Source: Paraflavisolibacter caeni | GTDB lineage: Bacteria > Bacteroidota > Bacteroidia > Chitinophagales > Chitinophagaceae | Assembly: GCF_025628885.1 (NCBI RefSeq) | Contig: NZ_JAOTIF010000023.1 | Coordinates: 44,013 to 108,012 of the forward strand | Reading direction: 5' to 3' | Length of the DNA stretch: 64,000 nt | Shown: piece after piece, positions 33,068 to 59,333 of the stretch | How positions within the stretch are numbered: position 1 is the stretch's first letter | Layout: the number at the start of each line of letters is the position of its first letter | The notes under the pieces: generated by a model | Database searches by the model: none | What the model saw: only the letters and a program-made list of their open reading frames with translations | Told to the model about the DNA's origin: nothing | Translations under genes and position numbers: made by a program

Positions 33068-36000
33068 TTAATTGCCCTTTAATATTTCAACTGCTCTTTC
33101 ATATTCATTCATCACAATAAATAATGCAGTTCCCATTAAATTAAATTCACGATATATTATAATACGAATCAATCTTATGAGCTTCTCATTATGAATAATT
33201 CCACTCAGCATTGATAGTAAAATTCTTTGAATAGTTATCCCAAGCTCCTCATCGGTCGATAATGAATTGAGATACAATAATTTGATTAACCTTATTGTGA
33301 CACCAAAAACCTCTGGACTAGGGTTAAAGTAGGGATTTAAATTAAGTAAAGCATAGCTATAAAAGTTTGTTTGCCCTTTCTTATTCTTTTTAAACTCTTC
33401 AAAAACTAGTTTTTCATTTAGACTTATACCAATATACCTTTGGGTTAGTAAAAATTCTGAAATACTTTCTATTTTTTCCGGTGCTAGATTTGAAATAAAA
33501 GACTGTGGAGACAAAATTCTTTTAGTAAACTGAGCAAAATTTCTTACGCAGAAAAAGTCACTTGTTATTAAATAGTATTCATCTTCCAGACCAACTAAGG
33601 AGTCGACAAGAGATTTCAAAACCTCATTATCACCTTTTTCCCTTGCCAAAAAGGAATGGAAGGAAACTCTTTTATCGATAATCAAAGGAAGACAATAATT
33701 ATTTATCCAATTTAGTATATCATTTAGATGTTCTAATCTCTTTTCATTGTAGTTATCAGGATAAAATTGAGGCTGAACACCTTCAACTGTAATTTTCAAC
33801 GAAAGCTTAGCTTCTTTTGCTAACCTTACCTCAACAATCTGACTCTTAAAATAATCAATTACAAAAGGAGAAACATAAAACTTTTCTGAATATTTTATGT
33901 TTAACTCGGTAAAGACCTTTGAAAATAATATGATAGAGGAAGCATCTAATATATACTTTCCATTTGTAGACACTTCATGATTAATATTGAATGTAGCTGG
34001 TAATGTAATAAATCCTTCACTCGAATTTGCTGAAGTAAAAAAGTTATAAGCGTCAATAAAGTTTCCCTTAAACACAGAAGCAGTTATTTCTGTAAATGAA
34101 AGAGTTCCATTGTAATAAGATTTAAGCTGTTCATTTATAAATTGTTCCATCATGCTCCCCTGAGCACCGAAAGCTTCAATTAACTGTTTTTCAAAATCTT
34201 TAAAATTGTCACCTTCTAAAGAAAACTTTTTCAATTGCAAATCAGATGTAGGATTCTCTGCTTCTCTAATTATTATATTGAAAAGAGCAGAGTATTTATT
34301 CATCACCTTTTTTATGATTGCTTTTTTAAATGAAAATCCTATTGACTCTTTCAAAAAAACTTCATCATTAACTTTTTTGCCTAAAAAAGAGTCAACCAAA
34401 ATGCTGTTTGACTCTTTTTTATTTATTTCAATTATTCTTTCGATTCCTTCAATTTCGTACAACACAAATGAACCACTTACAACCTCTGGAAAGTCTTCAA
34501 ATAAAGTTTCTGGAAAATGAGTTGTATTGGATATAAAAGCCTGTCTTGCACGTTTATTTTCATTTTTAGAAGCACACTTATATAATATATCTAATGCAAT
34601 TTCAAATAAGCCACTCTGCGCATAGATATTTGAACTATTAATTGCATCAAATTCATTATCAAATAATACTCCTTTAACTGTATTACTTAATTCATGTAAT
34701 AATTGTTTTTTATCCTGCCTATTTAAGGCCAACAAAAGTAGAGATAGAAATTCTTTATTGTTAGGGAATATTTTATATCCGAGTTCCGCAATTTTTTCAA
34801 TTTCTGTCCAATCCTCAATATATTGTCTGTAATAGATTTCTGTTTTTAAAAAATCTATTTTTAAACTAACATTTATGCGCCACCATTTCAATATTTTAAT
34901 AAGCTCAACTTTATCAGCTTCCTTATATTCAATTAAACACCATATATATAAATACAAATCTTTACTTGGGACCGTTGTATTTACATAGCTTTTCAGAAAT
35001 GAAATACATTCACCTAAAAGGCGGTATTTATAAAGTGCTCTAGCAATGAAAAAATCAAAAGATTTTGCTGGCTTAATAGTATTTTCTTTAATCGAAAGGA
35101 TTTGATTAAATCTTGAATTACATTCACCATCCTCTCCAAGCAGTGCATTAATAAAGAAGTCGAAAATTTGAGATAAATAAAGATTAGAGAACTGTTTAGA
35201 ATTAGAAATGTACTTTTTGAATGATGAAACATCTTCTATTTTAATAAAAACATCTTCAACATTATTCAAAAGATTAAATAATACAGTTGCATCTATTATA
35301 TTAAAACAATCTACATAACCTTTAAGATTTATTAAAGCTAGGTCTTTATTTCCTTTTATCTTATGTAGAATACAGCTGATTAGCTCTTTTAAACCTGAAT
35401 TGTTCTCAGTCTCAGTAGGTGAAAAACTTGAAATGTAGTATAAAGCCTTATCTAATTCATTTTTTTGAATAAGTATTTGAATTAGGCACATTATATTTCC
35501 TACTACCGGGTTCTTAAGTACAGAGAAATCTCTTTCTAATTCGTACAAGTCCGAACTTGAATCCGATAAAGCAGTGAAATAGCTATTATAATAAAAATAA
35601 AGCTTGTACTTTTCCTTAATCTCGCTCTCTCTGAAAGTAGCTTCAAAGATTTTTAATAGCTCTTTCAGATACTGCACTCTTTTATTATTTAGAACTTCAT
35701 CATCAAAATCGAATGGATGGGAAGAATTCTCTTGATGGTAAAGATTTAAATTTATCGCTGCTATTAAACTCCAATAATGTTTATTTTGATAAGAAAGATT
35801 ATCTGGAATAAGAGGCATGACTATATTATCCTTTAAATATTCATTCTGAAGTTTAAATACTACATCAAAATCTTTCAGTGAAATATATAAATGATAAATA
35901 AGTATTATAAACACTTTATCTTCTAAAACTTTCTTCGGAATAGTACTTATTTTATGTAAAAAATCTCCCTCAGTAAGTTTGAACTTAATAAACCATGCAT

Positions 36001-36841
36001 TAGGGTTATAGTCATCTTTATCAATTATAATTGTGGCTAATTCATTTGATTTATCAATATCGCCATTGTTGAGATATTCAATAGCAGCTCTTAATGTGTA
36101 ATCTAAATCTCCTTTGTTGTATTTATAGGCTTTAATATAGTAATCTTTTTGAGTATTAGCTTCATCATCTAAGTCTTCCCAACATAATCCTTTTAGAAAA
36201 TAAACTTTACATTGTATTTCATCTGTCATCTTCCCATTATCCTTAATGCTTGCTTCCAATGATTCAAGTCTTCGAAGAGCAGTTTTATGTTTAAAAGATT
36301 TTATGTCATCTTTTATTTCTTTAAGCTGCCTGATATACTCTCCTTTTAAAGAATCGTCAATTTGAAGAACAGTCCTACTCAAAGAACTCGTCAATTGGTT
36401 TAGCTGCTCATATATTTGGAAAATTTTGTCCTTATAAGTAAACTCTATTTCTAATTTCTTAAGATTCTTATGTTTCGATAAATTGCTTCTGAATAAGTCA
36501 AAAAAATCGTTTAACTCCTCTATAGTTGGTGGTATTATATGCTGCTTATCAAGCAATAATCTTTGCAATGCATTAACGTCAAATTCATTAAAAAATGAAA
36601 AATGCAGAAGTTCTTCAACAAATGCTTGTGAAATATAGAAAGCTATCCTGTTATCTTTTTCATTTATTTTATGGACACTCTGATACTGTGTTAAACTTTC
36701 GTTTATAACACCACTTAACTCTTGTTCAAATTTGGTTACATTTCCAAAAAAGTTCTTAATATAGCTGTCACCCCTTTTTTGAAGATACCCAAAAACCAAC
36801 TTTTTGCCGGTAGCTAAAGCTATTGTAGATATATCCATCAT
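33068..36841 (-). CDS. Large TPR / PIN-domain protein, putative defence component
   Basis: About 1257 residues from ATG 36841 (ATG 36880 would add 13). The N-terminal 130 residues are a helical domain of unknown type. A long run of TPR-like helices follows (about 150-770). A beta-rich patch with EVVSGSFVLYEIEG and DSFLGKKVNDEVFL resembles a GreA/B C-terminal-like barrel. Then comes a PIN-like nuclease domain: first Asp in YILDASSIILF (979 in the 1270-residue numbering) and second Asp in YYLITSDFF (1108). From memory, PIN-TPR-GreAB-C fusions have been listed among predicted conflict systems. It is the last gene of the R-M operon, 76 bp after the methyltransferase stop. Confidence 0.6.
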   Translation of the reverse strand: MMDISTIALATGKKLVFGYLQKRGDSYIKNFFGNVTKFEQELSGVINESLTQYQSVHKINEKDNRIAFYISQAFVEELLHFSFFNEFDVNALQRLLLDKQHIIPPTIEELNDFFDLFRSNLSKHKNLKKLEIEFTYKDKIFQIYEQLNQLTSSLSRTVLQIDDSLKGEYIRQLKEIKDDIKSFKHKTALRRLESLEASIKDNGKMTDEIQCKVYFLKGLCWEDLDDEANTQKDYYIKAYKYNKGDLDYTLRAAIEYLNNGDIDKSNELATIIIDKDDYNPNAWFIKFKLTEGDFLHKISTIPKKVLEDKVFIILIYHLYISLKDFDVVFKLQNEYLKDNIVMPLIPDNLSYQNKHYWSLIAAINLNLYHQENSSHPFDFDDEVLNNKRVQYLKELLKIFEATFRESEIKEKYKLYFYYNSYFTALSDSSSDLYELERDFSVLKNPVVGNIMCLIQILIQKNELDKALYYISSFSPTETENNSGLKELISCILHKIKGNKDLALINLKGYVDCFNIIDATVLFNLLNNVEDVFIKIEDVSSFKKYISNSKQFSNLYLSQIFDFFINALLGEDGECNSRFNQILSIKENTIKPAKSFDFFIARALYKYRLLGECISFLKSYVNTTVPSKDLYLYIWCLIEYKEADKVELIKILKWWRINVSLKIDFLKTEIYYRQYIEDWTEIEKIAELGYKIFPNNKEFLSLLLLALNRQDKKQLLHELSNTVKGVLFDNEFDAINSSNIYAQSGLFEIALDILYKCASKNENKRARQAFISNTTHFPETLFEDFPEVVSGSFVLYEIEGIERIIEINKKESNSILVDSFLGKKVNDEVFLKESIGFSFKKAIIKKVMNKYSALFNIIIREAENPTSDLQLKKFSLEGDNFKDFEKQLIEAFGAQGSMMEQFINEQLKSYYNGTLSFTEITASVFKGNFIDAYNFFTSANSSEGFITLPATFNINHEVSTNGKYILDASSIILFSKVFTELNIKYSEKFYVSPFVIDYFKSQIVEVRLAKEAKLSLKITVEGVQPQFYPDNYNEKRLEHLNDILNWINNYCLPLIIDKRVSFHSFLAREKGDNEVLKSLVDSLVGLEDEYYLITSDFFCVRNFAQFTKRILSPQSFISNLAPEKIESISEFLLTQRYIGISLNEKLVFEEFKKNKKGQTNFYSYALLNLNPYFNPSPEVFGVTIRLIKLLYLNSLSTDEELGITIQRILLSMLSGIIHNEKLIRLIRIIIYREFNLMGTALFIVMNEYERAVEILKGN

Positions 36842-36917
36842 GTATTTATTTAATTGAAAAATGGAACAACCTATACACATTATTATATAGATTATTCCAT
36901 TTTATTTAGGTACTTTC

Positions 36918-45097: not shown

Positions 45098-45445
45098 CTA
45101 CGCACCTATCAAAGCATTTGAGGCTTTTGATAATGGCATTGATTCCCTTTCTTCTGGATTGTAGGTGTAGGAATGTGTGAGGGTGATTACTTCGCCTGTT
45201 TCCTTAACTGTATATTCATAGCCTTCAGTTTGTACCCTCTCAATCCTACCTCTAATTTGTTTGCCAATAAGCGTTTTTGCAATGTCTTCGGTGAAGGTAG
45301 ATGGGATTGTACACCTCCTTGCAGTAGCATAAAAACGACCAGTCTGGGCTGATTGTATCATCTCAACGTCACCCTGAAGTTCCAATGAGACAAAAGACTT
45401 TCCTTCTCCATTCTCCCGAATGGAATAATTGATAATGGTTACCAT
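45098..45445 (-). CDS. Hypothetical small protein of the element, beta-rich
   Basis: 115 residues, mainly strands: MVTIINYSIRENGEGKSFVS, GDVEMIQSAQTGRFYATARR, IGKQIRGRIERVQTEGYEYT. The pattern and size would suit an OB-fold single-strand binding protein, but I do not recognise a family and this is only inference. It is oriented like the Sak4-like ATPase and DUF3871 genes and may have been part of one operon before the HEPN gene entered. Confidence 0.55.
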   Translation of the reverse strand: MVTIINYSIRENGEGKSFVSLELQGDVEMIQSAQTGRFYATARRCTIPSTFTEDIAKTLIGKQIRGRIERVQTEGYEYTVKETGEVITLTHSYTYNPEERESMPLSKASNALIGA

Positions 45446-45677: not shown

Positions 45678-46718
45678 ATGACTTGGCAGCCAATCAAAAT
45701 CGTAAAGAATATCAAACGAAACCAAGAGCAATATTGTCTGCTTTGCAATATAAGAAAAGCAAATGCCTCCGGCTCACATTTTGTCTCTCAATGTATGCTC
45801 AGTCATACTATCGGTAAAAGAAATAGTTATACCGCCTATTCAATAGACGCCTCGGAAACTTCTGCAGATGTTTCATTCGGAAGAGAAAATAGCCCGTCAA
45901 CCATTATTACACCTAATCCCCATACAGAGGATTATATATTTTGCCAGCAATGTGAAAGCTACTTTAGTACCTTGGAAAGCGAGGGCTGCAATTTCTTCAA
46001 TGAAAAGCTAAGAAATAAGCGATTTGAGCAACAATTTAAAGTAGAAGATTTGGGAGATGGCAATAACCTAAAAGTCTCAAAAATAGTTGATGCAAACATT
46101 ATCAATCTGTTTGTATATTCCTTGATATGGCGAATGTGCCTTCAACAAAGGTTGAATAATTATGAAAGTCCAATTAATCCACAGTTCGAACAGAAACTGG
46201 CAGATACATTAATTCCTTATATTGATAAAACAAAACATCAAATCAAACATTCTTCCATTGAACTTCCCTATCCATTTATTTTATTAACTGATGATAGCAT
46301 AGACATTGAATCAGCAACTTACATTAATCCAAACGTAATTGAAACAAATCCAGAAATGTTTTTTTTGGGGAGGTATATAGTACTAATGTATCACAATTTT
46401 ACAGATATATCTACAAAAGAATTAGTTGTAAAGCCTGAACTGATAAATAGAAATTATCAAAACGGAAATGCAAATTCTCCAATAAAAACACTTTATATTA
46501 ATCAAACACATTGGAAAGAGATAAATTATCAGTTTGTGGCAGAGTATTCAAAAAAATACTTATTTGTCGTTGCTCAAAGAATACATGCGGAAACTGGAAT
46601 AAGTTTAAAAAACGCAGCTGAATTTCTACAAAATCGCTTGGAACTCATTAAAGCGCAGGGCACTGATGCTTTAGAAGGAATCAATAATGCATATTTAGAA
46701 ATCATTGGAAATAAATGA
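45678..46718 (+). CDS. Zinc-binding (HNH/treble-clef-like) protein paired with AbiGi
   Basis: 346 residues. Two CxxC pairs (Cys20/Cys23 in YCLLCNIRKANASGSHF, Cys89/Cys92 in FCQQCESYF) and His34 outline a treble-clef zinc site like that at the start of HNH-type proteins, though a full HNH catalytic motif is not evident. The remaining 240 residues are helical and unrecognised. The gene ends 29 bp before the AbiGi-like gene on the same strand, so they are probably co-expressed and function together; it occupies the place of a toxin or nuclease partner (inference). Confidence 0.55.
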   Translation: MTWQPIKIVKNIKRNQEQYCLLCNIRKANASGSHFVSQCMLSHTIGKRNSYTAYSIDASETSADVSFGRENSPSTIITPNPHTEDYIFCQQCESYFSTLESEGCNFFNEKLRNKRFEQQFKVEDLGDGNNLKVSKIVDANIINLFVYSLIWRMCLQQRLNNYESPINPQFEQKLADTLIPYIDKTKHQIKHSSIELPYPFILLTDDSIDIESATYINPNVIETNPEMFFLGRYIVLMYHNFTDISTKELVVKPELINRNYQNGNANSPIKTLYINQTHWKEINYQFVAEYSKKYLFVVAQRIHAETGISLKNAAEFLQNRLELIKAQGTDALEGINNAYLEIIGNK

Positions 46719-46747
46719 AATAACCAACAATACAAAATCATAGTGAA

Positions 46748-47614
46748 ATGCTTAAGCAAGTTGACCATATCTTCCATTTTACTACAGAGCTGAATACATT
46801 AAAAGAAATATTAAATACCGGATTCAAACCATCGTATGCACGTGAGACATTAGCAGACAGTAATGTTTTAGTACCAATGGTGTCATTCAGTAACATCCTA
46901 CTAAGAGACGTAGGTAATGTCGAGGTACTTAACTATGGTGAATATGCAATTGGATTTGAAAGAGAATGGGGTATAAGGAATGAATTCAACCCAGTGGTAT
47001 ATACGTATAAAAATGGGCTATTGCAAAACAATTTAAAATCCTTTTTAGATAACACGGTTTTCTTGAGTTTCATTACAGAATTTAGAGACAAGCTCAAACT
47101 TTTCAATTCAAATGGAATGAAATTCTCATCTCACATTAATTTAACCAATACCACAAAAGAAGCACTGGATTTATTAGACTACTTGACACTTAATTATAAA
47201 GACGAACTCATAGATAGTATATCCGCACACTCAAGAGCTATCCATTTAAAGAACATTCAAATATTTGCAATAACGAAGCAGTATAAAGTAAAAAATGTTC
47301 AGGATAAGGAATTCATTGCTTATAATGATAGGGAATGGAGGAAATCGTATCCAGAGTTGGATATTCTTTTTGAAGGGGAAGAAAATTATACTCATTGGAT
47401 AAATGCACCAAAACCACATTTTAACAATGAGCCATTCCTTTTGAAATTTTCAATCAAAGATGTAAAAGCTATTTTAGTGAAAAATAAGGAAGAAATTTAT
47501 GAAATAGTAAGTGAATTAAAAAGTTTGCACGGAGATGACTTGATTGATAAACTGGTTAGTAGAAGGTCTTTATTAATTGGAACAAAAGAAACTCTTGAGA
47601 AAAATAATTTCTAA
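46748..47614 (+). CDS. AbiGi-like abortive infection protein
   Basis: 288 residues. The N-terminal half fits the AbiGi family (PF10899): IFHFTTELNTLKEILNTGF, then VPMVSFSNILLRD, NYGEYAIGFEREWGIRN and EFNPVVYTY. In Lactococcus AbiG consists of AbiGi (antitoxin) and AbiGii. No AbiGii relative is recognised here; the upstream gene is a zinc-binding protein instead. The HxT, IL..GF and YG..A.GF pattern also recalls DarT-type ADP-ribosyltransferases, so an enzymatic role is possible (speculative). The C-terminal half is not assigned. Confidence 0.65.
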   Translation: MLKQVDHIFHFTTELNTLKEILNTGFKPSYARETLADSNVLVPMVSFSNILLRDVGNVEVLNYGEYAIGFEREWGIRNEFNPVVYTYKNGLLQNNLKSFLDNTVFLSFITEFRDKLKLFNSNGMKFSSHINLTNTTKEALDLLDYLTLNYKDELIDSISAHSRAIHLKNIQIFAITKQYKVKNVQDKEFIAYNDREWRKSYPELDILFEGEENYTHWINAPKPHFNNEPFLLKFSIKDVKAILVKNKEEIYEIVSELKSLHGDDLIDKLVSRRSLLIGTKETLEKNNF

Positions 47615-48930: not shown

Positions 48931-50064
48931 ATGGAAACTGAACTTACATACCCATATCAAAATCTTGACTTAACCGATATAAAGGGAGAACAATGGGAAG
49001 ATATTCCCGGTCTGGATGGATATTACCGTATTTCTAACTTGGGGCGCACTAAAAGAATGGCCTTTGAAATCCTCTGTAGCAATAGTCAGATTCGCCGCAT
49101 TAAAGAAAAAATATTAGCACCTGAATTAGCGGTACAAGAGAACCATTCTGTAAATGACAAGAATTACTTCCTGCGGATTAAAATTATGCAAGCTGGTGTG
49201 GTTTATAACTTCAGTGTAGCAAGACTAGTCTACTATTCATTTGTTAAAAACTTCGACCTCTCAAACCAATCCTTAGTAGTGATACCCAAAGATGGGAACG
49301 GTAAAAATATTCATCCCAAAAACTTAAAACTGGTAGATATAAGCCAGAAACAACAGCGGATTTTTGATAGGGGACGCCTTATAAAGCATTTACCCGATGC
49401 TTACGATGAGTTTGTCAGCCAAGGGTTAACAAAATCCACTAATCCCTTTTGTAAACAGATTTCACAGTATACGTTGGAAGGAAAGAGAATCCAGACATAC
49501 CCCAGTACACAGGTGGCTGCTCAGGTGTTGGGTATTTCTGAAAACGGAATAAACAGTGTTTTGAAAGGCAGGCAGGTTTCCTGTGGCGGGTATGTCTGGC
49601 GTTATGGCGAGGAAAAACGGGTAGACATGAAAGCGATAATGGAAGAGAGAAGCCTTCACCGTAAGAAGCTTGTAGGACAGAAAGTAACTCAGTACAGTCC
49701 TGAAGGTAAACGAGTAGCCACTTTCCTTACCATAAGCGATGCAGCAAGAGCCACAGGACTTGGGAGTGATGGTATTTGTGCTGCTTTAAGTGGAAAGCAG
49801 AGAAGTGCAGGTGGTTTTATATGGAAAAAGGGATGGGGTAAACCAGAGATAGACCTTAGTAATTATGTCTTTGGAGAAGCATTGAGAGCACAAAAAAGAT
49901 TCAAACAAGTGTATCAATATTCCCCAGAAGGAAGGCTTCTTACTACTTATCCAAGTGTTAAAGATGCTGCGGCAGCACATGGTATCAGTCCTACATACAT
50001 CAGCACAGTATTAAATAAAGGAAAACTGGCTAAAGGTTTTTTATGGGAAACGTCTAGCAAATAA
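48931..50064 (+). CDS. NUMOD4 plus three NUMOD1 repeats, HNH-deficient
   Basis: 377 residues built from DNA-binding modules of homing endonucleases. NUMOD4 is at 18-50 (EDIPGLDGYYRISNLGRTKR). The next region (about 90-140) has the layout of an HNH core, but the usual H-x-DGN motif reads VVIPKDGNGKN, so the metal-binding His is lost. Three NUMOD1 modules follow (about 172-225, 248-300 and 325-375), each with a QYS/T-x-EG-x-R start and an AA-x-x-x-GIS helix. It probably binds DNA without cutting it. Confidence 0.75.
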   Translation: METELTYPYQNLDLTDIKGEQWEDIPGLDGYYRISNLGRTKRMAFEILCSNSQIRRIKEKILAPELAVQENHSVNDKNYFLRIKIMQAGVVYNFSVARLVYYSFVKNFDLSNQSLVVIPKDGNGKNIHPKNLKLVDISQKQQRIFDRGRLIKHLPDAYDEFVSQGLTKSTNPFCKQISQYTLEGKRIQTYPSTQVAAQVLGISENGINSVLKGRQVSCGGYVWRYGEEKRVDMKAIMEERSLHRKKLVGQKVTQYSPEGKRVATFLTISDAARATGLGSDGICAALSGKQRSAGGFIWKKGWGKPEIDLSNYVFGEALRAQKRFKQVYQYSPEGRLLTTYPSVKDAAAAHGISPTYISTVLNKGKLAKGFLWETSSK

Positions 50065-50753: not shown

Positions 50754-50833
50754 TTGACTATCAATTTATTTTCTAAAAATACTAATTGAAAAAATAAAAG
50801 TAAGAGCGGCATAAGTCATCCTTACTTTCAGTC

Positions 50834-50865
50834 GGTCAGGCAATTATTTTAACAGAAGACTGACC
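50834..50865. repeat. CAGT-type inverted repeat, copy 3 (weak)
   Basis: GGTCAG at 50834-50839 pairs with CTGACC at 50860-50865, flanked by CAGTC on the left. It is shorter than copies 1 and 2 but shares the core and the position at a gene boundary. Confidence 0.4.
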
Positions 50866-51248
50866 ACAGTAAACTTCACCATCACATCAGTTAGATGTAA
50901 TGTTCATAGTAGCACCCAACATAATCCTTTTCTTCTTACTTTCCACATTTGTATAATAGCATTTGTTTAAAGCCATTTTAATCAGCCTATTCCCTCTATT
51001 CCGGTAAGTTTATTAGGTATAGGTAGGAAAAGTATTATCTAACTTAAAAGTATATTGCATGTGATTATACAAAAATGCTATTGTATAATATATAGGTTAT
51101 TCCATTCATTAGCGGTTTACAAATCGTACTTTTGGCTGTGTTTTGAAGTGATACCTTTCTAAGAATACACAATTGATTGAACGAGTAAATAATTGAGATA
51201 ATAGCATTTGATTATTTCAATTATAATCGGCTGGAAATCAAAAGATTA

Positions 51249-51279
51249 TTTGGATAATCGAAAATAATGTCGTATATTG
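51249..51279 (+). promoter_or_regulatory. Bacteroidota-type promoter for the candidate RNA
   Basis: TTTG at 51249-51252 and TATATTG at 51273-51279 are 20 bp apart, close to the -33 TTTG / -7 TAnnTTTG pattern of Bacteroidota. Transcription would start near 51286, just before the first helix of the structured region. Confidence 0.45.
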
Positions 51280-51284
51280 CAGAG

Positions 51285-51765
51285 TATTGAAAAAAAATCT
51301 CTTTCTCAATAACCTCCAGTGTAAAATTTCCTACCAACGGAGGTGAATTCAATAAAGCTTCTAGAGGACTGAGGTCTCATACGATGGAAGGTAGCCTGAT
51401 GAAAAGGGCGAAGCACCATTGGCAGTAGGATTTGTATTCTCTACCGCTTCTATTAAATAGGAGCAACATAAGAGATAGTTTTATTCTACGGGAAGCGAAA
51501 GTTTTTTATATAAGGTTGCAGCTTGGTGGTATTACCCTTCAATTTCTGGCAGATGTCAGAGGGGTCTCGAAATGACGAGAACAACAGTTTAAACTACCGA
51601 GGTGCTTTAAAGGAGGAGTCCTTTATAGTATGAGGCTAGAAACGGGGCAACTGAAAGTAAAGAACGAAACATGCACTTCACAGCCCTATAAGTGCACCTT
51701 ATTGCTATAAGGCGGGAATTATGATTTGGAAACTCAAATCGTAAGGGGACTTTTTATGTCTTGTT
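51285..51765 (+). ncRNA. Candidate large structured non-coding RNA
   Basis: 50754-52233 has no ORF of 60 codons. Within it, about 480 bp are richer in G+C than the surroundings and full of complementary segments. Examples: ACCTCC/GGAGGT (51312/51339), an arm formed by CTCTACC to GATAG around 51438-51478, CCCTT with GAGGGG around 51535-51563, TCTCG/CGAGA (loop of six), CTTTAAAGG/CCTTTATAG around 51605-51628, GCACTT/AAGTGC, CCTTAT/ATAAGG (loop TGCT) and GATTTG/CAAATC. Hairpins follow one another almost without gaps, as in a compact ribozyme-like RNA. I could not match it to RNase P, tmRNA, group I or II introns or retron RNA. Ends are approximate. Confidence 0.5.
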
Positions 51766-52026
51766 AAGAATGAAAATAGTTTATAAGTATTAAACTTCTG
51801 GCTTAGTAGGGTAAGCAAAACGTTTTCCTTACAAGGCATGAAATTCTTGCTTTATAGGGCTAGTTAATAAGACTTTGTTTAAACCCTCTCACCTCTATTA
51901 AGCAGGTAATTTATTCTTGCCAACTTAGCAATGTGAAACGCTGATTTGGCTATAAAGCTTCATGTATTTTATAATGAAAAACATTTGGCTTTATTATAAA
52001 CATTCAAATCTTGTTATTTAGAATTG

Positions 52027-52076
52027 AATTTTGGCTTTGTAGTTATATCATGAAACACTCTTACAAAGCCAAAATT
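52027..52076. repeat. 15-bp perfect inverted repeat
   Basis: AATTTTGGCTTTGTA at 52027-52041 and its complement at 52062-52076, with a 20-base loop. A second hairpin (8 bp, 51968-51975 with 51993-52000) precedes it. The motif TTTGGCTT/A occurs in or next to both and also at 51944. Confidence 0.65.
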
Positions 52077-52233
52077 TTAAGATGTAAACATCCTCAATAA
52101 TAAACATTTATCAATTTTACCATTAGAGAAGTCCACCATTCTCCATTTTTACCTAAATAGGCCATGTTTTTAGTAAAATTCTAATTTTATAAAATTAGAA
52201 CCATAACACGTTTGCAATAAGTTTGTTTACATT

Positions 52234-52839
52234 CTAATCAGCATTTTTGATAATCCATCTTTGCGCTTTTGACATGTACCTATAAGCAAAGGACCCTCCA
52301 AGGCATAATAAAAATGTATACAATCCTAACTTGATTGCTTTCCAGATTAAATATTCTTTTCTCTGCTCATAGCTTATCTGTGGAGAATATGAATTGAATC
52401 CAACCTTATTATCGCAATATTCGTCGAATCCTTCAGACCACCACAATGGCGAGTAAATTGGAGTAGTTATATCTGAGATAGAAGCTGAAGTAATGCCTTG
52501 AATTTCCTTATATTTTGCTCCATCAAATTTGTATGGTTGAAAAACAAAAAGGCATATAACGGTCACGAATATTGCAATGATGGCTGAGTATCCTGCTATA
52601 TACTGGAATAATAATACTTCCTTAGCTACCTTTTTTTTGTTGTTAACATTACCATGTTGTATTGGGGGAGGTGTCTCATAAAATAAGTCATGCAATTCTT
52701 CAATTTGATTTGCAGGTATCCATTTAGGCATGCCTGCTTTCCAAACAAGGTCATCTGCTGAAAGTTTCTGCTCTCTTAATTGTTGCACTGAAACAGGACC
52801 ATACCTGTAATTACCTTTGCTATAAAAGTACTGACTCAT
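52234..52839 (-). CDS. GYF_2-domain membrane protein
   Basis: 201 residues. The N-terminal 55 residues are a GYF_2-type domain: YFYSKGNYRYGPVSVQQLRE, then LVWKAGMPKWIPANQIEEL. Two membrane helices follow (about 83-107, FQYIAGYSAIIAIFVTVICLF, and about 173-190, GLYTFLLCLGGSFAYRY), enclosing a loop of some 60 residues. GYF_2 proteins usually tether something at the membrane; the role is not known. It stands between the structured RNA region and the XRE gene. Confidence 0.65.
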   Translation of the reverse strand: MSQYFYSKGNYRYGPVSVQQLREQKLSADDLVWKAGMPKWIPANQIEELHDLFYETPPPIQHGNVNNKKKVAKEVLLFQYIAGYSAIIAIFVTVICLFVFQPYKFDGAKYKEIQGITSASISDITTPIYSPLWWSEGFDEYCDNKVGFNSYSPQISYEQRKEYLIWKAIKLGLYTFLLCLGGSFAYRYMSKAQRWIIKNAD

Positions 52840-57231: not shown

Positions 57232-57732
57232 ATGCAAGAATTAACATGGGTACCTGTAAAAAACTATGAAGGGTACTATGAGATTAACGAAAAAGGAGAA
57301 GTAAGAAGTCTCCATAAAAGAAACTTTCATGAAATAATGCCCCAACGTATAGGTAGGGGAGGTTATTTGACAGTCAGCTTAAGTAAAAGGGCAAAAGATT
57401 ACACAGAGTTTGTACACAGGTTATTGGCTTTTACATTTATTTCAAATCCTGAAGAAAAACCATGGATAAACCATAAAGATGGCAATAAGCTAAACAATGA
57501 AATTGGCAATTTGGAATGGTGTACGCCGAGTGAGAATGCAAAACATGCCTATGAAACTGGGCTAAGTAAAGTCCCTGAGAAAAGTTGCCGGAAGGTTATT
57601 GATACCTGCACCAATAAGGTATACGATAGTGCTAGTCAGGCGGCTAAAGCTCTGAACATAGCTTACAGCACCTGTAAGAACTATTTAAATGGCGGGCGTA
57701 CAAATCCCACCTGCCTTCGATATGCTGCTTAA
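57232..57732 (+). CDS. NUMOD4-HNH endonuclease
   Basis: 166 residues with an intact homing-type nuclease layout. NUMOD4 at 5-35 (WVPVKNYEGYYEINEKGEVR) is followed by an HNH core at about 62-105 (VHRLLAFTFISNPEEKPWIN, then HKDGNKLNNEIGNLEWCT), which keeps the H-x-DGN-x2-N pattern and the final Asn/Trp. A NUMOD1-like DNA-binding tail (ASQAAKALNIAYSTCKNYL) ends the protein. It probably cuts DNA site-specifically, as free-standing homing nucleases do. It is convergent with the integrase. Confidence 0.85.
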   Translation: MQELTWVPVKNYEGYYEINEKGEVRSLHKRNFHEIMPQRIGRGGYLTVSLSKRAKDYTEFVHRLLAFTFISNPEEKPWINHKDGNKLNNEIGNLEWCTPSENAKHAYETGLSKVPEKSCRKVIDTCTNKVYDSASQAAKALNIAYSTCKNYLNGGRTNPTCLRYAA

Positions 57733-57736
57733 AGAG

Positions 57737-57754
57737 GGGGTAGTTTACTACCCC
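57737..57754. terminator. Bidirectional terminator
   Basis: GGGGTAG and CTACCCC form a 7-bp stem followed by T5. It is shared by the HNH gene and the integrase gene, whose stop lies inside the stem. Confidence 0.75.
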
Positions 57755-58926
57755 TTTTTATAGAACTTCTCTACATCATTTGCAATTTTATTCAGATTAA
57801 CCCGGGCATAAATTTGAGTGGTTTTCAGCATCTTATGTCCAAGCATGGCTGACACAGTAGTAATATCTACGCCATTGTTTAAGGCTAAAGACGCGAATGT
57901 ATGCCGAGCTGCATGAAAGCTTAGTCTCTTTTTAAACCCTGCCATACCAGCTATTTCCTTAAGGTACTTATTTAGGTTCTGACTGGAAATGACAGGTAAT
58001 AATTCTTTTCCCTTTTCCCCACCGTATTTCTTCAAGATTTCCTCAGCTTTAGGAAGCAAAGGGATTGTAGACTGGTTTTTTGTTTTTGTTCGGTCAAGAA
58101 TTATCCAGTTCCTTTTATTAATCCACTGGATATGTTCTTTTGAAAGTTTTGAAACATCGGCATATGCCAGACCTGTATAGCAGGCAAAAACAAAAATGTC
58201 CTTTACCTTAATTAGCCTCTCACTGGGTAATGGTAAAAGTTCCAAATGTTGCAGTTCCTCATTGGTAAGATGAACTCTTTTTGGCTCAATTAACTTGCAC
58301 TGGTACTTTGCAAACGGGTCTTTTTCCATCCACTCATTCAACATGGCAATGCGAATAACCCTTTTCAATTGCTGCATATTCTTAGCTACACCATTATTAT
58401 GAAGACCTTGCTTTACCCTCATGAAAGTATCTAGCTCAAAAATAAATTGATGGTTAACCTGAGAAAGTAGAATATCCTCTGTTTTCCATTCCTCTGCAAG
58501 GAACTCTTTCACTTTTCGTTTTACTGTTTCGTATTTCTTTACAGTCCTTGGGGCAATATCATTATGTACTCTTGCTTTAAGGTTTGCTATCTGATACTCA
58601 ATTGCGCCAAGAATGGTATGTTCAGACTTGTTCTCACCTAGCAATGCCTGTTTTATATCGCCGAGAGCAAGGGGCATTTGCTGTCTCAAACATTCATTAT
58701 AGTAATTCCATGCATTGGTATTTAATATTAGAAGCTGTTTATTATATGCCTTTACCAAATCGTTGGAACCTTTAACCTTTTGCCTGTCTTTATCCCATTG
58801 GGTTTCTTCTATTTCTATTTGTGTGGGAAAGTTGATTCGTTTTCCTTCAAGAGAAATCCGCATCATGATTGGAGCAAGCCCTTTTTTATTCATTCTTGAT
58901 TTATATAGCCAGAATAATATGTTCAT
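57748..58926 (-). CDS. Tyrosine recombinase (integrase)
   Basis: 392 residues from ATG 58926; a GTG at 58962 would add 12. It has a Bacteroidota-type arm-binding domain (FWLYKSRMNKKGLAPIMMRI), a SAM-like core-binding domain (about 95-205) and the catalytic domain. The HxxR box is SFHAARHTF, the second His is in MLGHKMLKT and the nucleophile Tyr in TTQIYARV. At the usual first Arg position the sequence is CYTGLAYADV, i.e. Ala, as in the IntDOT-like group where that Arg is missing. It lies next to the tRNA-Met end of the island and must be its integrase. Confidence 0.92.
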   Translation of the reverse strand: MNILFWLYKSRMNKKGLAPIMMRISLEGKRINFPTQIEIEETQWDKDRQKVKGSNDLVKAYNKQLLILNTNAWNYYNECLRQQMPLALGDIKQALLGENKSEHTILGAIEYQIANLKARVHNDIAPRTVKKYETVKRKVKEFLAEEWKTEDILLSQVNHQFIFELDTFMRVKQGLHNNGVAKNMQQLKRVIRIAMLNEWMEKDPFAKYQCKLIEPKRVHLTNEELQHLELLPLPSERLIKVKDIFVFACYTGLAYADVSKLSKEHIQWINKRNWIILDRTKTKNQSTIPLLPKAEEILKKYGGEKGKELLPVISSQNLNKYLKEIAGMAGFKKRLSFHAARHTFASLALNNGVDITTVSAMLGHKMLKTTQIYARVNLNKIANDVEKFYKKG

Positions 58927-59220
58927 AAAACTGATTTTAGGAGGTAAATAAATGGAGGTCACACTTTTTCATAGCGGTGAGCCTCTTGAATCTAATAGGA
59001 TGTAAATCGTTGACAGGAGAGGGTTTCCCGGAAACAGGGTTCATAACCTTTTTTGAATTGAAACCTCTCGTTTTGTGACCTTTTTATAGCGTTAAGGAGG
59101 CTGTAGCCGTTGAGGGAAATAAGTGGAAAGTAAAAAAGTAAGTGCCCTAAGCTTTGTAAATGTTATTGAAAACCAATCAATTAAAGAAAATGGCTTCTTA
59201 ATAAGCCTTGAGGTATGGGC

Positions 59221-59301
59221 ACAAAAAAGCCCCGAACTTTCATCCAGAGCTTTAAAGCGTAGCGAGGAGCAGACTTGAACTGCCGACCTTCGGGTTATGA
59301 A
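59221..59301. repeat. attR-type direct repeat within tRNA-Met
   Basis: 81 bp identical to 32775-32855. It supplies the 3' half of the tRNA gene from the anticodon loop onward and the tRNA terminator (59223-59251), so integration leaves the tRNA functional. Confidence 0.9.
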
Positions 59302-59333
59302 TCCGATGCTCTAACCAGCTGAGCTACCTCGCC
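59260..59333 (-). tRNA. tRNA-Met (CAT)
   Basis: 74 bases that fold into a full cloverleaf: acceptor GGCGAGG/CCTCGCT, D arm GCTC/GAGC, anticodon loop TTCATAA, variable AGGTC, T loop TTCAAGT. The anticodon is CAT, and CCA is not encoded. A tRNA-Ile with modified CAT cannot be excluded by eye. The anticodon stem has one A-C mismatch. It is the integration target of the island; a terminator hairpin follows at 59223-59251. Confidence 0.92.

Follow-up and report, generated by a model that had tools for sequence, protein, structure and literature searches.

A predicted family of large structured non-coding RNA in Chitinophagaceae genomes

An intergenic stretch of the Paraflavisolibacter caeni genome very probably encodes a member of a real, self-standing family of large structured RNA that is new by the standard of Rfam 15. 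This reading rests on a fold conserved with compensatory changes in five genomes, on the lack of coding capacity and on the lack of a match in Rfam. The RNA gene lies within a 64,000-nucleotide stretch of contig NZ_JAOTIF010000023.1, hereafter the window, whose positions are used throughout. We favour, with moderate confidence, the fuller reading of a new non-coding RNA family with its own predicted promoter, folded as a two-domain scaffold that acts in trans and is not part of a neighbouring gene.

Extent of the locus and its folding

A preliminary description of this region had proposed a structured RNA on the grounds of about 480 bp without ORFs, a G+C content above that of the surroundings and at least eight self-complementary helices, and each of these features was recovered on analysis. 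The stretch contained no ORF longer than 47 aa, and stop-free stretches in the six frames of 51282-51765 reached 48 codons at most. The G+C content was 0.398 in 51250-51749, compared with 0.296 just upstream and 0.282 just downstream. The plus strand of 51280-51765 was predicted to fold at −135.7 kcal/mol (z = −3.06), with no equal among 100 shuffled sequences, and the core (51353-51662) at a z of −3.52, with no equal among 200. The helices outnumbered those first described, the 3′ domain having 7 (48 pairs) and the 5′ domain a further five, drawn by hand (Table 1). Folding of the minus strand was likewise unusual (z = −2.53); as both strands fold well, energy alone cannot assign the strand of the RNA. 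When the 3′ domain was read on the plus strand, 209 of 220 cells paired, as against 176 of 220 on the minus strand, a drop due to 35 cells being G-U; hence, the conserved G-U pairs set the plus strand. The 5′ leader could not be aligned with the most similar copy, that of Niastella.

Table 1. Coordinates of the predicted RNA, its parts and a candidate associated gene in the window
Feature	Position	Strand	Basis or remark
Whole predicted RNA	51282-51766	+	~485 nt; promoter to end of 3′ hairpin; both ends predicted
5′ leader, variable, with additional hairpins (AACCTCC/GGAGGT)	51286-51376	+	Fold; not conserved
H1 hairpin of 5′ domain, CGATGG with CCATTG	51382-51421 (51382-51387 with 51416-51421)	+	Hand-drawn, five sequences
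H2, inside H1	51395-51397 with 51406-51408	+	Hand-drawn
H3, arm of 5′ domain, GTAGGA with TTCTAC	51425-51489 (51425-51430 with 51484-51489)	+	Hand-drawn
H5, arm of 5′ domain	51439-51442 with 51471-51474	+	Hand-drawn; none drawn for G172
H4, arm of 5′ domain	51448-51451 with 51459-51462	+	Hand-drawn
3′ domain: closing helices, multi-branched arm, hairpins	51496-51662	+	Model R2, 167 positions, 48 pairs
Near-invariant, mostly unpaired strand AGGCTAGAAACGGGGCA	51633-51649	+	In all five copies
3′ hairpin CGUAA-[GGGGACUUU]-UUAUG with conserved GGGG motif	51740-51758	+	
NUMOD4-HNH_3 homing-endonuclease-like gene, candidate associate	57232-57732	+	Pfam, homology

A long inverted repeat (52019-52084; TTTTGGCTTTGTA ... 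TACAAAGCCAAAA), visible in a sub-threshold mir-9 alignment, was noted in the interval that separates the RNA from GYF_2, a convergent gene, and is possibly a two-way terminator. The scan of 51150-52250 for terminator-like sites gave none.

Relatives and conservation of the fold

Searches for homologues, one of the checks proposed for the candidate, produced four relatives through a combination of DNA queries and covariance models. With a DNA query, 394 Chitinophagaceae genomes yielded one true match, in Niastella yeongjuensis DSM 17621 (G454), with 82% identity over query bases 99-383; the same sequence was present in NZ_FOCZ01000009.1. A model of the 3′ domain (R1; window 51496-51662) built from the window and Niastella copies detected a third copy, in genome G206 (E = 8.8e-10), among 294 genomes, and a three-sequence model (R2) detected copies in G245 (E = 1.1e-11) and G172 (E = 5.3e-11) among the 394 family genomes. 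Carriers make up 5 of these 394 genomes and are patchily distributed (1 of 5 genomes in the genus of G206, 1 of 10 in Niastella and 2 of 31 for G172 and G245), the four relatives of the window all being Chitinophagaceae. DNA identity over the core was 84.6% between the window and Niastella, 60.4 to 65.6% between the window and the other three and 70.6 to 75.8% among G206, G245 and G172. For comparison, identity between the window and Niastella was 64.1% for the HNH gene and 66.0% for the gene at 45098-45445, so of these three sequences the RNA core has changed least. Beyond the family, a DNA search of 396 genomes at order level and a search of 295 at class level returned the query's own genome only; the best 7 to 9 first-look candidates per genome were scored in the large searches, and such absences are consequently soft.

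Several other matches were discarded. A DNA search of 148 relatives gave chance pieces, 7 of the 8 matching genomes having just 21- to 42-base matches, and the similarly short matches of G225 and G024 in the 394-genome DNA search were also due to chance. A match in G979 (E = 0.0445), the third in the genera of G172 and G245, was due to chance, lying in unremarkable sequence that follows a transporter gene. Pattern scanning of genome contigs gave 17 matches, of which Niastella alone was real; seven such scans of viral contigs revealed no real copy, and BLAST of phage and plasmid records with the window, Niastella, G172 and G245 queries (not every query in both collections) found nothing real.

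Covariation, a further proposed check, was pronounced, with strong compensatory changes across the five copies. The alignments (A6 and A7) were guided by the structure of the model and are therefore biased towards it, but that structure was derived from only two of the five sequences. Across the five copies, 95.0% of the 220 cells of the 3′ domain paired (75.1% after shuffling, 37 to 44% with one strand slid) and 30 of the 48 pairs were changed on both sides (14.6 in shuffles, 3 to 8 when slid); none of 500 shuffles reached any of these measures. A plain MAFFT alignment of the window and Niastella copies, with no fitting to structure, gave 77 pairs with RNAalifold, 8 of them changed on both sides. 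Helices of the 5′ domain were assigned manually, in knowledge of the expected result; for these 23 pairs all 111 cells paired and 12 pairs were changed on both sides in the five sequences, one helix (H5) not being drawn in G172. H1 and H2 contributed 9 of these hand-drawn pairs (5 changed on both sides) and the arm of H3, H4 and H5 the other 14 (7 with both sides changed). Folding energies of whole copies varied widely, with z values of −5.15 for Niastella, −1.45 for G206 and −0.39 for G245, the latter two being unremarkable.

Two sequence elements recurred in all five copies, in both cases as patterns written after the five sequences had been seen: a 17-base strand, AGGCU[AU][AG]AAACG[GA][GA]GCA (AGGCUARAAACGGGGCA type), at a fixed spacing from where the 3′ domain ends, and the motif GGGG-N2-7-U[AG]UGU, located 49 to 82 bases past this domain. 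The latter, searched as GGGG-N2-7-T[AG]TGT no more than 200 bases from the core, occurred in 0 to 15 of 2,000 mononucleotide shuffles per copy. In the predicted fold, AGGCUAGAAACGGGG would be expected to be unpaired. A pseudoknot (GGYAG/CURCC) covaried between the window and Niastella but overlapped helix H5 and was not traced in the other three copies; it was dropped. Just past the 3′ domain of loci L043 (1651-1700), L053 and L054, a common hairpin with an ACG...UAA-type loop was seen by eye, with differing stems (UCUGA/UCAGA, AUGG/CCAU and CUGG/CCAG); this hairpin was not found in the window or Niastella copies.

This conservation also bears on the idea that the stretch is a decayed coding region or a chance structure, for which the window's z of just about −3 and the near-zero z of G245 could be cited; with stops in all frames of the two copies compared and covariation in both domains, this explanation, which the preliminary description had raised against its own candidate, is scarcely credible and is refuted unless the alignments are wrong.

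Predicted transcription, neighbouring genes and alternative explanations

Promoters of Bacteroidota follow the consensus TTTG-N19-21-TAnnTTTG. The TTTG-N20-TATATTG originally noticed ahead of the RNA was present as written on the plus strand (TTTG, 51249-51252; TATATTG, 51273-51279). The best site within 180 bases upstream of each copy was scored against TTTG-N18-21-TAnnTTTG (maximum, 10) and compared with 500 shuffles per copy. The window site scored 8 and was matched by 151 of 500 shuffles; hence, by itself it proves nothing. Sites of Niastella and G245 scored 10 each, with no shuffle as good in either case, while those of G206 and G172 scored 9, equalled by 12 shuffles (suggestive) and 59 shuffles (marginal at best), respectively. 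The distance from predicted promoter to core ranged from 34 to 97 bases across the five copies. Taken together, the five sites favour independent transcription, without proving it.

The surroundings of the RNA were those of mobile DNA at most loci. A phage-type integrase gene was present at four of the five; that of the window (57748-58962) adjoins a tRNA-Met gene (59259-59333), the Niastella locus also has a resolvase and RadC, the G206 and G172 loci have VapE-like genes as well, and the window and Niastella loci have further element genes in common. In a comparison of ORFs (E up to 1e-4; 15 to 46 kb of context each), no gene was common to all five loci. The two flanking membrane-protein genes (50223 and 52234), put forward in the preliminary description as possible partners, did not match any ORF of the other four loci, and as the neighbours differ between loci these two are not shared partners. 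Pfam detected no reverse transcriptase domain among 19 proteins of the window island or the scanned proteins of the other loci, so a template role is without support.

Three further features of the island were observed. In the 377-aa product of the gene at 48931-50064 (plus strand), Pfam found NUMOD4 and NUMOD1/I-HmuI-like repeats but no HNH domain; these are perhaps DNA-reading modules without a nuclease. At 45678-47614 (plus strand), an AbiGi-like gene (46748-47614) lies right behind a gene for a 346-aa protein lacking Pfam and PADLOC matches, and the two are possibly an abortive-infection pair. A 1,270-aa protein with no Pfam or PADLOC match (33068-36880, minus strand) adjoins the type IIG restriction-modification genes and is possibly the product of an undescribed defence gene.

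Three explanations still stand beside the trans-acting scaffold, in the order of defence cargo, HNH-linked homing unit and ribozyme. The RNA could be an anti-phage system or decoy, carried as defence cargo and binding a phage or host factor. Such a role would suit the type IIG restriction-modification set and the AbiGi- and AbiU2-like genes of the window island, the type I restriction system that adjoins the copy in G245 (the locus with no integrase) and the HSDR_N/N6_Mtase gene near the G172 copy. However, no effector gene was common to the loci, a PADLOC scan of seven neighbours (other than HNH and PLD genes) gave nothing, and islands collect defence genes anyway; we consider this explanation unlikely.

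A homing unit, in which, as with HEARO, the NUMOD4-HNH endonuclease either moves the gene for the RNA or makes use of the RNA itself, is similarly improbable. In Niastella and G172 the HNH gene is encoded directly 3′ of the RNA and in the same orientation; in the window it is ~5.5 kb away. The three proteins are 35 to 52% identical. The HNH family (E up to 1e-8) was detected in 4 of 5 RNA carriers and in 3 of 17 hand-picked non-carriers of the same genera (Fisher P = 0.021), 2 of these 3 having weak or broken copies. Against the association, no member was detected in G245 at this threshold, the G206 copy is on another contig, and none of the three proteins showed the RuvC partner domain present in IscB. 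Moreover, the gene type is common, with 2,488 of 50,697 phage records matching the window copy; free-standing HNH genes thus settle beside many things, and a partnership with the RNA is weak. Other genes of the element are also common to the window and Niastella, so the link is explained in part by descent from one element, and the HNH gene is likely a fellow traveller of the RNA. Other NUMOD4-HNH loci (L063 to L065 and L067 to L070) had no RNA copy nearby, the best score being 12.7 bits (E = 0.13) with filters off. In one of these (L067:1056-1482, genome G058), a stretch of ~426 bases running from a promoter-like site to the NUMOD4-HNH gene looked structured, but with a z of −1.85; it does not belong to the window RNA family, had no second copy in 10 genomes and is perhaps another RNA ahead of a related HNH gene.

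Comparison with known families used cmscan and Rfam 15. At gathering scores, one tRNA alone was detected in the whole window. Relaxed searches turned up nothing but below-threshold matches to microRNA, snoRNA and sRNA families, six in 50760-52240 (E up to 5) and three more of this kind in loci L043, L013, L053 and L054 (E up to 3). The covariance models of ROOL, GOLLD, OLE and HEARO had no match in the window or the homologous loci. These results uphold the initial impression, formed by eye, that the RNA matched no known large RNA, and no description of it was found in Rfam 15 or in a limited search of the literature. A ribozyme, such as a strongly changed self-splicing intron, could account for the compact multi-helix core with its GAAA-capped hairpin (window and Niastella copies), the near-invariant unpaired strand and the homing-endonuclease genes nearby. 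Ribozyme families, those of group I and group II introns included, gave no match even at a permissive E value in the window stretch or the four homologous loci, and the RNA is intergenic at each of the five loci, splitting no gene, contrary to what a self-splicing intron would do; we regard a ribozyme as very unlikely.

Possible function and comparison with known large RNAs

In the reading we prefer, the RNA would be transcribed from its own predicted promoter as a unit of ~480 nt and would fold into a two-domain scaffold in which the AGGCUARAAACGGGGCA sequence stays open at the closure of the 3′ domain. This open strand, together with the GGGG loop in the 3′ hairpin, may then be presented to a partner from the host or the element, through which the RNA could act as a scaffold or decoy. 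It might thus be a cargo useful to the mobile element, much like the ROOL and GOLLD RNAs carried by phages. A scaffold acting in trans is the somewhat better supported option, argued by analogy and from the lack of a neighbour common to the loci; the RNA may instead act in cis on short unannotated ORFs. Any particular partner that might be named would probably be wrong. More speculatively, and with rather low confidence, the RNA could be a machine of Bacteroidota islands, independent of proteins or binding a host protein, that serves the island via the near-invariant open strand and would constitute a fourth kind of ornate RNA beside OLE, ROOL and GOLLD. It could serve the island in defence, in transfer or by taking over a host process.

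Few large ornate RNAs are known, and this family adds a compact predicted structure that can be tested, with five natural sequences, a near-invariant strand as a target for mutation and, as a carrier in culture, Niastella yeongjuensis DSM 17621. The family further indicates that defence-rich islands carry RNA genes invisible to protein-based annotation.

The membrane-protein partners first suggested would have resembled the situation of OLE RNA. The window RNA is, like OLE, large and ornate; unlike OLE, it has no Rfam match and its neighbouring membrane-protein genes are not kept at other loci. HEARO, the HNH endonuclease-associated RNA, is the omega-RNA of IscB. A large RNA followed by an HNH gene was likewise found at two of the five loci, whereas the gene is of the NUMOD4-HNH_3 type by Pfam, not the IscB type, and is missing beside three of the five copies. 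ROOL and GOLLD are described, in the parts of the source drawn on here, as long, elaborately folded RNAs of unknown function encoded by phages and prophages, often near tRNA islands, which form RNA-only multimers, ROOL being without a known protein partner (PMC12286853). The same parts give 659 nt for one ROOL and more than 800 nt for many GOLLD RNAs and call the functions of OLE, ROOL and GOLLD poorly understood (PMC12286853). The window RNA family differs from ROOL and GOLLD in being shorter (~370 to 490 nt predicted), in having no Rfam match and in having been found only in Chitinophagaceae genomes; it resembles them in being large, structured, non-coding and carried on mobile DNA.
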